Below, in pieces: positions 17,810-44,262 of a stretch of 64,000 bases of DNA. The translations under genes and the position numbers were made by a program. The notes beneath the pieces are model-generated. The model worked only from the letters and a program-made list of their open reading frames with translations. It did not search any database and had not been told where the DNA came from. Within the stretch, counting starts at the first letter, position 1. Each line of letters begins with the position of its first letter. The DNA comes from Acidaminococcus sp. (GTDB lineage: Bacteria > Bacillota > Negativicutes > Acidaminococcales > Acidaminococcaceae), in assembly GCA_022482815.1 (NCBI GenBank), contig JAKVOM010000001.1:2872946-2936945 (forward strand), written 5' to 3'.

Positions 17810-17886
17810 GGAACTATAGCTCAGATGGTTAGAGTACCACGTTGACATCGTGGGGGTCACTGGTTCGAGTCCAGTTAGTTCCACCA
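17810..17886 (+). tRNA. tRNA-Val (anticodon GAC)
   Basis: 77 nt with encoded CCA. The acceptor stem GGAACTA pairs with TAGTTCC. The anticodon stem CCACG/CGTGG encloses TTGACAT, giving anticodon GAC (valine). The T-arm holds GGTTCGAGTCC. It stands alone between its own promoter and terminator. Confidence 0.95.
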
Positions 17887-17992: not shown

Positions 17993-18014
17993 CCGAAGTA
18001 CACAATTGAAAACT

Positions 18015-18095
18015 GCAGTACAGGACTGACGGATAAGTGGAAATGACCACGTGCCTTGTACTGTGAAGGAATGCCGGCCGTCTGGGCAGAGAGGA
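18015..18095 (+). ncRNA. ZTP (pfl-type) riboswitch aptamer
   Basis: The order of parts matches the ZTP riboswitch. P1 is CAGTACA (18016-18022) with TGTACTG (18057-18063). The junction GGACTGACGGATAA is followed by P2 GTGG/CCAC (18037-18050). After a linker comes GCCGGCCGTCTGGGCA (18073-18088), which matches the conserved 3' part CCGCCTGGGC. The family pseudoknot is kept by a paired change: GACGG (18028-18032) with CCGTC (18078-18082). The class senses ZTP/ZMP, a sign of 10-formyl-folate shortage, and usually turns genes on. The recognition is by eye. Confidence 0.8.
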
Positions 18096-23675: not shown

Positions 23676-23681
23676 TATAAT
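23676..23681 (+). promoter_or_regulatory. Extended -10 promoter of the LarA-like gene
   Basis: TGCTATAAT, an extended -10, 31 bp before the start codon. No good -35 hexamer at standard spacing. Confidence 0.6.
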
Positions 23682-23712
23682 GGAGAAAAACAAGAAAAGG
23701 GGCCTTCCTTAT

Positions 23713-25017
23713 ATGGTTACGTTTAAAGAGATCACACTTCCTTACGGGAAGACGACACAGTCGATTTCCCTTCCGGAATCGCATATCGCGCAGGTCATCG
23801 AACCGATTACGGTGCCGGCTGTTGATGTAAAAACCGCCTTCAGGGAAGCAATGGAGCATCCGATTGGTTCCAAAAAGCTTTCCGAAATCGTGAAACCTGG
23901 TGACAAGGTGTGCCTCGTTACCGCCGATATTACGCGTGCCTGGAGCGGTTCGGGCCGCTTTATGATTGAAATCGTAAATGCCCTTAATGAGGCCGGCATC
24001 CCTGACGAAGATATGTACATTGTATTTGCCCAGGGCACCCATCGTGCTCATACGGACGAAGAAAATGAGACTGTAGTCGGCAAGGAAGTAGCCCGCCGCA
24101 TCAAGATGTATCAGCATGACTGCCATGATGATCAGAATCTGACCTATGTCGGAACAACCAGTTTCGGGACACCGGTCTATCTCAACAAAAAAGTAGTCGA
24201 AGCCGATAAAACCATCATTATCAATGGACTGGCACCGCATCTGTTTGCAGGTTTCGGCGGCGGCCGCAAAATGATTCTTCCCGGCGTTGCCGGCTGGGAC
24301 ACAATCCAGAAGAATCACTGCCATGCACTTTCCCAGGTTCATGGTGAAGGTATCAATCCTGCCACAGCGCACCGTGCCCTGAAGGGCAATCCGGTCAACG
24401 AAGATATGGTAGAAGGCATGGAAATGTGCCGTCCTGATTTTTTGATTCATTCCCTCATCAACGGAGACGGGGAAATCTGCGGTTTTGTAGCCGGCGACCC
24501 CTATGAGGCCTGGCTGGAAGGCACCAGGAGAGTCCTGCAGAATACCGAAGTCGCTGTCAAGCAAAAAACAGACGTAACCATCGTAAGTGCCGGCGGCTAT
24601 CCCAAGGACTTGTCCTTCTATCAAGGTGTCAAGTGTTTTGAACCGGCTGCCGATGTAACGAAAGACCACGGCATCATCATCGCCCTTGTTGACTCTCCCG
24701 ATATCAAAGAACCAAAAATTTTCTGGGACAGTTTCCGTTTCCAGACGCTGCCCGACATGGAACAAGGACTGCGTGACTGTTTCACAATTCCGTTCTTTAT
24801 CGCCTTTTATGTCTTTACCCTGGCCCACAATTATACGATGTATCTTGTCACGCGCAAAGAGAATTTCGAAGCCGTCAAAAAGACTCATATCATTCCGTGT
24901 GAGACCCTTACAGAAGCTTGGGACAGAGCTTCGGAAGAACTTGCCCGGTTAGGAAATAAAAACTATACGATTAATCTGATGCATCATGGTGGGGCTGTTA
25001 TCCCGAAGTTGGAATGA
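23713..25017 (+). CDS. LarA-family nickel-dependent 2-hydroxyacid racemase/epimerase
   Basis: 434 aa from the ATG at 23713. Resembles LarA (DUF2088). It shows SKKLSEIVKPGDKVCLVTADITR (in parts), GTHRAHTDEE with the catalytic His, a second His in MYQHDCHDD, and HLFAGFGGGRKMILPGVAGWD in parts, with the Lys that binds the pincer cofactor and the neighbouring His. The family interconverts D and L forms of lactate or other 2-hydroxyacids using a nickel-pincer nucleotide. No larB, larC or larE genes are nearby, so the cofactor genes must be elsewhere. The structured element at 25040 follows directly. Confidence 0.85.
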   Translation: MVTFKEITLPYGKTTQSISLPESHIAQVIEPITVPAVDVKTAFREAMEHPIGSKKLSEIVKPGDKVCLVTADITRAWSGSGRFMIEIVNALNEAGIPDEDMYIVFAQGTHRAHTDEENETVVGKEVARRIKMYQHDCHDDQNLTYVGTTSFGTPVYLNKKVVEADKTIIINGLAPHLFAGFGGGRKMILPGVAGWDTIQKNHCHALSQVHGEGINPATAHRALKGNPVNEDMVEGMEMCRPDFLIHSLINGDGEICGFVAGDPYEAWLEGTRRVLQNTEVAVKQKTDVTIVSAGGYPKDLSFYQGVKCFEPAADVTKDHGIIIALVDSPDIKEPKIFWDSFRFQTLPDMEQGLRDCFTIPFFIAFYVFTLAHNYTMYLVTRKENFEAVKKTHIIPCETLTEAWDRASEELARLGNKNYTINLMHHGGAVIPKLE

Positions 25018-25039
25018 AACCAGCTAGTGCATTTTAAAG

Positions 25040-25438
25040 GCACCTCAGACAATCTGGTGCTCGGCTGGCCTCGCACGCATCTTGTCTGAGAGCTTTTTCT
25101 AAGGAAACTTTTTCTGTCCAGCGCAGTAGGGAGTCACTGATTCACTCGCGACTTCATCTACATACGTCTGTACCAGCTACGCTGTGTCGACAATTCCTCG
25201 AGATACGCCCGGTAACCCTCCGGATTGTCTTCTTGCGTAGCTGGCGCATCCGCACGTATCTGAAGCCGTTCATTGAATCAGTGATTCCCATGGGCGCATC
25301 TACTTTGTCAGGCGGACTTAGGAACCACTCGATATACTATTTTTGTATTATCTCGGGTTCCTAAGCCCGCCTTCCTTGTATCTGCGTCCATCTTCTGTGC
25401 CGTCCACAAAAAGAAAATGAAAAAACAGGTGTGAGATA
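25040..25438 (+). repeat. Multi-stem structured repeat, long copy (candidate RNA)
   Basis: Shares about 238 nt with 43876-44113 and has an extra arm of about 160 nt. In order: GCACC/GGTGC; CTCAGACAA with TTGTCTGAG plus a T-run; AACTTTTT/AAAAAG with GCGCA/TGTGC; the extra arm (TCACTGATTCA/TGAATCAGTGA, 25133-25286); ATGGGCGCA/TGCGTCCAT; and the long hairpin GGCGGACTTAGGAACC/GGTTCCTAAGCCCGCC. Several stem pairs differ from the other copy by compensatory changes. The rest of the 25018-25691 gap holds a terminator and no gene I can see. Confidence 0.8.
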
Positions 25439-25579
25439 AAGTAAAGGAATAAAAACGGTACTTTTTTCATGATGGGTACCTTATGACCCAATCTGGTCTT
25501 TCGCGCATTTGCAGCTATCTTTCAAAAGTGTCTACCAAAAACTAAAAATAAAAGTGGTTTAATGTTGAAATACAAAAAC

Positions 25580-25625
25580 GGAACTGTGAAAAAATACACT
25601 ACGTACTTTCTTCACAGTTCCTATC
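25580..25625. terminator. Terminator near the 3' end of the MATE gene
   Basis: GGAACTGTGAAAAAA pairs with TTTCTTCACAGTTCC; a variant of the dispersed terminator family. It lies 67 bp from the MATE stop codon, so it may serve that gene on the minus strand. Confidence 0.65.
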
Positions 25626-31436: not shown

Positions 31437-31722
31437 AAACGCTTTGCCTCAGCCAAGAGACAAAGCGTTTACACTCTGCGGTACCACTCTTTTTGCCGCC
31501 TGCGCGGCCCCTCCTCAGACATCAGAAGCTACAGGCAGCTTTTTAATGCCTGGCAGAATAACGGCTGCCACCCGTTCCCGACTATTCCTCTTTTCCCCGG
31601 GACGGCTCCTGGGCCAGATTCATGATGCGCTTCCTTCCTGCCTCGCACCGGCCGGCAGGTCTCTGTCCATTCCACGGCATCACTACTATTCCCACTCAAT
31701 GCCATTTAAGTTTATGAATTTA
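31437..31722 (-). ncRNA. T-box leader of the hydroxyacid dehydrogenase gene, with terminator
   Basis: On the minus strand the T-box AGAGTGGTACCGCAGAGT (31490-31473) is followed by a terminator, AAACGCTTTG with CAAAGCGTTT and CTTTATT (31470-31430). Upstream is Stem I: AGTAGT and GATGC (31681-31677) pairing with GCATC (31628-31624), an AG-bulge (GGACAGAGA), and a GCCGGTGCGAGGC head. The specifier strand reads ATGAATCTGG. CUG (leucine; 31617-31615) fits the gene's branched-chain keto-acid role, but UCU (serine) is the reading if GAA directly precedes the specifier. Uncharged tRNA should raise transcription into the dehydrogenase and now also the transposon. Confidence 0.88.
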
Positions 31723-43870: not shown

Positions 43871-43875
43871 GAAAA

Positions 43876-44113
43876 GCACCTCAGATAATCTGGTGCTCGG
43901 CTGGCCTCGCACGCATCTTATCTGAGAGCTTTTTTAGGGAAACTTTTTCCGTCCGGCGCAAAAATATGGGTGCATCTGCTGTGTCAGGCTGACTTAGGAA
44001 CCACTCGATATACTATTTTTGTATTATCTCGAGTTCCTAAGTCAGCCTTCCTTGCATCTACACCCATCTTTTGTGCCGTCCATAAAAAGAGAATGAAAAA
44101 ACAGGTGTGAGAT
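43876..44113 (+). repeat. Multi-stem structured repeat, short copy (candidate RNA)
   Basis: Aligns with 25040-25438 but lacks the extra arm. Stems: GCACC/GGTGC; CTCAGATAA/TTATCTGAG then TTTTTT; CTTTTT/AAAAAG plus GCGCA/TGTGC; ATGGGTG/CACCCAT; AGGCTGACTTAGGAAC/GTTCCTAAGTCAGCCT. It begins 6 bp after the J-domain gene stop, on the same strand. The rest of the gap to 44266 holds a small hairpin (GCCGCC/GGCGGC) and a terminator. Confidence 0.8.
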
Positions 44114-44212
44114 GGAGTTAGGCTGTGAGAAGGGTACCTTTTACGACTATCTTGCATCAGCGCCGTCAGAAACAAATAGCCGCCAAAGGCGGCCGATGGA
44201 TAGCGGAAAGTG

Positions 44213-44262
44213 AAAAAGGGACTGTGAAATAACGCACACGCATTATTTCACAGTCCCTTAAT
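44213..44262 (-). terminator. Terminator of the DUF2939-like gene
   Basis: AAAAAGGGACTGTGAAATAA pairs with TTATTTCACAGTCCCTTAATTT. Dispersed family member. Confidence 0.85.

Follow-up and report, generated by a model that had tools for sequence, protein, structure and literature searches.

What are the two long, similarly folded repeats that lie just behind plus-strand genes in a 64,000-nt stretch of an Acidaminococcus sp. genome (hereafter the window), and why do the two arms of their stems change together? A sequence-only reading of the window had described them as an unrecognised multi-stem repeat, and had named a structured non-coding RNA, a complex 3' end and a folded mobile DNA as the options. 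The evidence favours the last of these, because dozens of copies are dispersed in the genome, the orthologous sites examined are empty, and copies nest and leave remnants. Our preferred interpretation, in which we have somewhat more belief than doubt, is that the repeat, here called element A, belongs, as its Acidaminococcus representative, to a family of non-autonomous, REP/MITE-like selfish folded elements that spans several phyla.

Both repeats were located where the earlier reading had placed them, and the three compensatory pairs quoted from them are all present in the sequence. Their closeness to a plus-strand stop codon was also confirmed, the gap being 22 nt for copy 1 and 5 nt for copy 2. 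Copy 2 is a 238-nt unit, and copy 1 (399 nt) consists of that unit plus a 161-nt module B placed between the P2 and P3 arms. Against shuffled sequences, the folding z-scores are -10.1 for copy 1 and -7.1 for copy 2. The parts are as follows:

25037..25438, written on the + strand, sense to the gene at 23680-25017, best-folding strand -: element A copy 1 (AAG GCACCT...AGGTGTG), with the internal module inside
25040..25093, +: P1 hairpin domain of copy 1, GCACCTCAGACAA...TTGTCTGAGAGC
25129..25289, +: nested module B in copy 1, about 161 nt, self-complementary, with ends GGGAGTCACTGATTCA/TGAATCAGTGATTCCC
25297..25311, +: conserved core of copy 1, 5' side, CATCTACTTTGTCAG
25310..25372, +: P4 hairpin of copy 1, arms 25310-25326 / 25356-25372
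25371..25384, +: conserved core of copy 1, 3' side, CTTCCTTGTATCTG
25495..25523, +: 3' core remnant of another element (GGTCTTTCGCGCATTTGCAGCTATCTTTC), downstream of copy 1
25577..25621, no strand assigned: terminator-like hairpin GGAACTGTGAA...TTCACAGTTCC beyond copy 1
43873..44113, +: element A copy 2, uninterrupted
43876..43929, +: P1 hairpin domain of copy 2 (CAGATAA/TTATCTG)
43973..43987, +: conserved core of copy 2, 5' side, CATCTGCTGTGTCAG
43986..44048, +: P4 hairpin of copy 2, arms 43986-44001 / 44033-44048
44047..44060, +: conserved core of copy 2, 3' side, CTTCCTTGCATCTA
44148..44175, +: remnant beyond copy 2, from the 3' end of an older element A of type II
44216..44259, no strand assigned: terminator-like hairpin AAGGGACTGTGAAATAA...TTATTTCACAGTCCCTT beyond copy 2

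The two copies first described are both real, but their number was understated: the covariance model R1 gave 80 matches in the window's own genome, which is complete (3.06 Mb), more than 40 of them above 100 bits, and the family extends across phyla. BLAST of the same genome recovered 66 pieces of the element A family. From an alignment of the 27 full-length copies in this genome (A1), RNAalifold proposed 53 pairs, of which 38 show two-sided compensatory changes. With the structure fixed, 96.8% of the cells in these 53 pairs are paired, and 307 cells are changed on both sides, compared with 101.6 ± 8.8 in shuffles and 18-33 when partners were slid by 1-3 columns, although such cells are not independent events, since the copies are related and recombine as modules. 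A single swap is not sufficient to account for the covariation because several pairs show three or more pair types. Kept pairing, as originally proposed, is thus borne out by the compensated pairs and by both controls; covariation of this kind, even in excess of the controls, cannot alone separate an RNA from a single-stranded DNA. Overall, element A is a long imperfect rod in which the stems vary with compensation around a fixed core, whose consensus CATCTRC-TKTGTCAR ... YTTYCNYG-YATCTG is set between variable stems.

The covariance-model search of Negativicutes and Rfam that had been suggested as a check yielded many further copies and no Rfam match. Specifically, at both gathering and lenient thresholds, the two window copies and seven cross-phylum loci gave no credible match to an Rfam family on either strand, in agreement with the initial failure to assign a known RNA class. 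Skipping-rope RNA, an early lead, was dropped for want of an Rfam match, and literature searches with the core strings returned only unrelated papers.

Within the genus, R1 detects the core in seven of nine genomes, G002-G007 being among the carriers and G001 and G008 the non-carriers, and within the family in 17 of 59. In other Acidaminococcus species, single cores lie right after guaA-like, aminotransferase-like and other genes, and some genes bear a core in several species. Clustered cores were also observed in the sister species G002, G004, G006 and G007 (loci L118-L121, L127 and L128), several of them after guaA-like, aminotransferase-like and ScdA/Ric-like genes. Copies within a species are often closer to each other than to their positional counterparts, as in concerted evolution, and this likeness suggests turnover or conversion among the Acidaminococcus copies. 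A BLAST search of 40 relatives found matches in the own genome alone because the stems diverge, and the exact P1 pattern, searched over the genome contigs, was not found outside the own genome either.

Beyond the family, the core pattern was found in named contigs of deltaproteobacterial, Nitrospirae, Bdellovibrio, Acidobacteria, Patescibacteria and Clostridia MAGs, where by our own arithmetic the number of matches expected by chance is well below one; MAG contamination may inflate this list of phyla, yet lineage-specific outer stems are seen in many assemblies. A second model, R2, matched 69 of 300 Negativicutes genomes at E<=1e-5, covering 36 of 97 genera, as well as 44 of 63 genomes from the class of G080 (a deltaproteobacterial group), with up to 67 matches in a single genome; its E-values are rough and it was trained on some of the matched sequences, so that the class samples are the fairer test. 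Sequences similar to the family are presumably common in deltaproteobacterial genomes, an assumption that served us as a lead. The ends of the element differ widely between lineages, and the internal core is invariant. Viral contigs lack the core pattern, and one Nitrospirae element searched against phages and plasmids gave no match. In the Clostridia MAG G089 (L252-L271), 67 copies show no strand preference, and past their hairpin a T-rich 3' tail (GACTTGRCTTTTTATACAGGCTG) is conserved. At L137 and L139, on contigs labelled as Acholeplasmataceae MAG, the form and spacing of the element are those of G015 (the window's family) and L134 (labelled Acidaminococcaceae); the Acholeplasmataceae label is probably wrong.

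The copies are often built into one another. Module B has copies of its own elsewhere, nested in other A elements or in a larger module C, and module C was also found in the apical loop of one A element. Six complete copies, including copy 2 of the window, have the 3' end of another A type 38-84 nt behind them, a P1 remnant precedes two copies, and a 3' core remnant trails copy 1 of the window. A lax regular expression for upstream P1 remnants was uninformative (566 of 2000 controls matched), and the remnant evidence therefore draws only on 3' remnants that are specific and on the two P1 remnants that are clear. The simplest reading of the nesting and remnants is the repeated insertion of new elements into old ones. 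That the family multiplies follows from empty orthologous sites among those tested in sister species, from elements that nest and from the remnants left by older copies. Module C itself is about 290 nt long (CGGAACTGAGCGCC...GGCCGAAGGCCGC), carries B, and occurs at G000:C1 406738, 1779106, 1831287, 1833746, 1837408 and 74894 (observed at L071, L089, L091, L092 and L087); in two places it adjoins what by eye is an IS110-like transposase gene.

The position of the window copies just after a plus-strand stop codon is supported throughout their own genome: a sense ORF (>=100 aa) ends close upstream in 37 of the 43 copies examined, nearly always within 30 nt, and stop-codon neighbours are sense-only in 36 cases and antisense-only in 0 (p = 3e-11). 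The genes concerned are unrelated to each other, being by eye smpB-, uvrA- and pyruvate-kinase-like. The same bias is strong in Nitrospirae/Delta MAGs (13 sense vs. 1 antisense), weaker in other Negativicutes (17 vs. 4) and absent from the Clostridia MAG (5 vs. 5). No element was found at the orthologous smpB 3' end in eight congeners, and in three species the ortholog of the gene before copy 1 is likewise not followed by one. In G004, one of the congeners, that ortholog has a terminator-like hairpin (CTGTGAA/TTCACAG) about 18 nt past its stop codon, and a similar hairpin lies about 560 nt past the stop codon in the own genome; therefore, copy 1 appears to have entered between the stop codon and the terminator. 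Many copies are followed by an intrinsic-terminator-like tail.

Such placement raises the possibility of a functional 3'-UTR element, that is, a sense-strand mRNA hairpin that serves to guard the 3' end, to stop transcription or to bind a protein, kept by selection and spread by gene conversion. Tight sense placement 2-30 nt past the stop codons of housekeeping genes, the terminator-like tails and the fact that several Acidaminococcus species carry elements behind guaA and other genes are all consistent with it, and the placement after guaA in particular could reflect function rather than selfishness. We nevertheless consider this explanation unlikely, since the tested orthologs in congeners lack the element, the Clostridia MAG shows no strand preference, and the sense strand neither folds as well as its complement nor has an excess of G.U over A.C pairs, as described below.

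The sequence-only reading was right that pairing is kept, but it folded the mRNA strand, whereas it is the antisense strand that folds best. The complementary strand is the more stable in all 27 own-genome copies (-107.0 vs. -88.3 kcal/mol) and in 74 of 80 copies elsewhere (-64.9 vs. -57.8 kcal/mol). Composition is ruled out as the cause because the gap persists when each strand is compared with its own dinucleotide shuffles, the z-scores of the antisense and sense strands being -10.25 and -6.69 in the own genome and -8.46 and -6.52 elsewhere. DNA energy parameters give the same direction with a smaller gap, copy 2 differing only by -52.0 vs. -49.2. In addition, on the sense strand the conserved CATCTRC/GYATCTG holds a 2x2 loop, UC/UC, that reads GA/AG on the complement. 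Tandem sheared G.A pairs are a stable motif. In the outer stems, read on the sense strand, 36 distinct events lead to A.C and 6 to G.U, i.e., the G.U/G.T wobbles fall on the antisense strand; this asymmetry is missing in P4 (22 G.U vs. 16 A.C) and in element A itself (12 vs. 17 pairs). The fold under selection is therefore probably that of the strand complementary to the adjacent gene.

A second alternative, which we regard as just as doubtful as a functional 3'-UTR element, is a structured non-coding RNA made from the antisense strand, whose 3' end would reach right up to the convergent gene's stop codon and which would have multiplied as a mobile sRNA gene or a retroelement. It would account for the strand that folds best, the RNA-typical tandem G.A pairs and purine-rich internal loops, the compensatory changes and the outer-stem wobble bias toward that strand. 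On the other side, no sigma-70-like promoter site was found for the antisense strand at either window copy, copy 2 is separated from the convergent gene by a terminator-like hairpin, and neither strand matches Rfam.

On the preferred interpretation of a selfish folded element, the antisense strand of element A would spread via a single-stranded intermediate, probably DNA and possibly RNA, which would fold into the rod, and a putative enzyme supplied in trans would recognise the rod by its invariant core. New copies would enter between stop codon and terminator and often into an existing element, so that hairpins become nested and copies turn over. Within the mRNA of its host gene, it would be a folded segment of the 3' UTR that is tolerated and perhaps used as a 3'-end barrier. 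Evidence against the selfish interpretation is that no transposase, recombinase or reverse transcriptase is linked to the family in the loci and assemblies examined, that no target-site duplication was established, that the Clostridia MAG is unbiased, that the wobble asymmetry is patchy and that copy 2 has only a small strand gap with DNA energies. More tentatively, and with less confidence than in selfishness as such, we suggest that the family may represent an unnamed cross-phylum class of mobile elements, marked by a folded complement strand, recognition by a tandem-G.A core rather than by the ends, delivery between stop codon and terminator, and self-insertion leading to larger nested rods.

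Among known systems, REP/BIME sequences are either GTAG-tagged with RAYT transposases or CGTC-tagged without them (PMC2817692, PMC3733652). A REP is defined as a 20-40 bp palindrome with an unpaired GTAG or CGTC tag at one end; in the GTAG type, two REP copies flank a RAYT gene, and CGTC-type REPs also occur without a transposase (PMC3733652). Like these sequences, the present elements are multicopy extragenic palindromes near gene ends, with compensated changes in their stems and a patchy distribution across phyla, and some REP families likewise have no known transposase. Unlike them, they are 90-400 nt long, have an invariant internal core rather than a terminal tag, were not found beside Y1 transposase genes and grow by nested modules. 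No common GTAG or CGTC tag was seen by eye at the ends of the aligned copies, the core motif is missing from 30 fetched Y1-transposase loci, and Y1 matches are absent from six carrier assemblies. An association with Y1/RAYT was thus rejected on the Y1 loci without the motif and the carriers without Y1, and a GTAG-tagged RAYT REP was excluded by the missing tag, the length and the motif-free Y1 loci. The own genome has six Y1 transposase genes (G000:C1 994410, 1227230, 241687, 1392001, 2720230 and 732568); the surroundings retrieved for five gave no element A match, and the nearest copy to the sixth (241687) is about 3 kb off.

Multicopy palindromic intergenic sequences, whose insertion was called non-random, have been described in Geobacter and Pelobacter genomes (PMC2700814, PMC2996986, PMC3543383). 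They resemble element A in being palindromic, intergenic and multicopy, and the portions of those papers available to us give no core, strand or stop-codon rule; the Geobacter sequences may overlap this family, in which case part of it has been described before. Bacterial MITEs are small and non-coding, with terminal inverted repeats and nested insertions (PMC10969869), and element A is alike in each of these respects, its outer stems forming terminal inverted repeats at both ends. It differs from MITEs in that conservation lies in the internal loop motif, not at the ends. Comparison of empty and occupied sites yielded no clean pair with flanks that could be aligned, and neither a target-site duplication nor a parent IS was established, so that element A is not shown to be a classical MITE. 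A plain MITE of a DDE-transposase IS, with a terminal inverted repeat (such as GTTCACGCT...AGCGTGAAC) recognised in double-stranded DNA and an incidental internal fold, would suit these repeats and the dispersed, nested copies, but is highly improbable given ends that vary between lineages around an invariant core, compensatory changes through all stems, and a target duplication and parent IS that were not identified.

The attC sites of integrons lie just after a stop codon in a fixed orientation, the folded strand is the complement of the gene, and their stems vary with pairing kept. Element A shares this oriented placement after stop codons, the folding of the complement strand and the variable stems with kept pairing. 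By contrast, it is dispersed beside core genes, whereas attC sites stand in cassette arrays, and attC core boxes were not recognised by eye at its ends.

Found in 69 of the 300 Negativicutes genomes sampled and in 44 of 63 from the deltaproteobacterial group, and absent from Rfam, the family would be one of the more widespread folded elements of bacteria that lack a classification. Its position behind stop codons and its strand preference raise the concrete question of which enzyme brings a folded strand to the 3' ends of genes, and whether the mRNA 3' ends of dozens of genes are altered by it at once. A covariance model would allow annotators to label stretches that are now left as anonymous intergenic DNA.

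A small GCCGCC-TTTGGCGGC hairpin recurs shortly past element A copies and remnants, for example at 44178-44194 in the window. The window also holds ordinary Rfam matches, namely a T-box leader (31453-31708, -), a ZTP riboswitch (18012-18094, +) and a tRNA (17810-17883, +).
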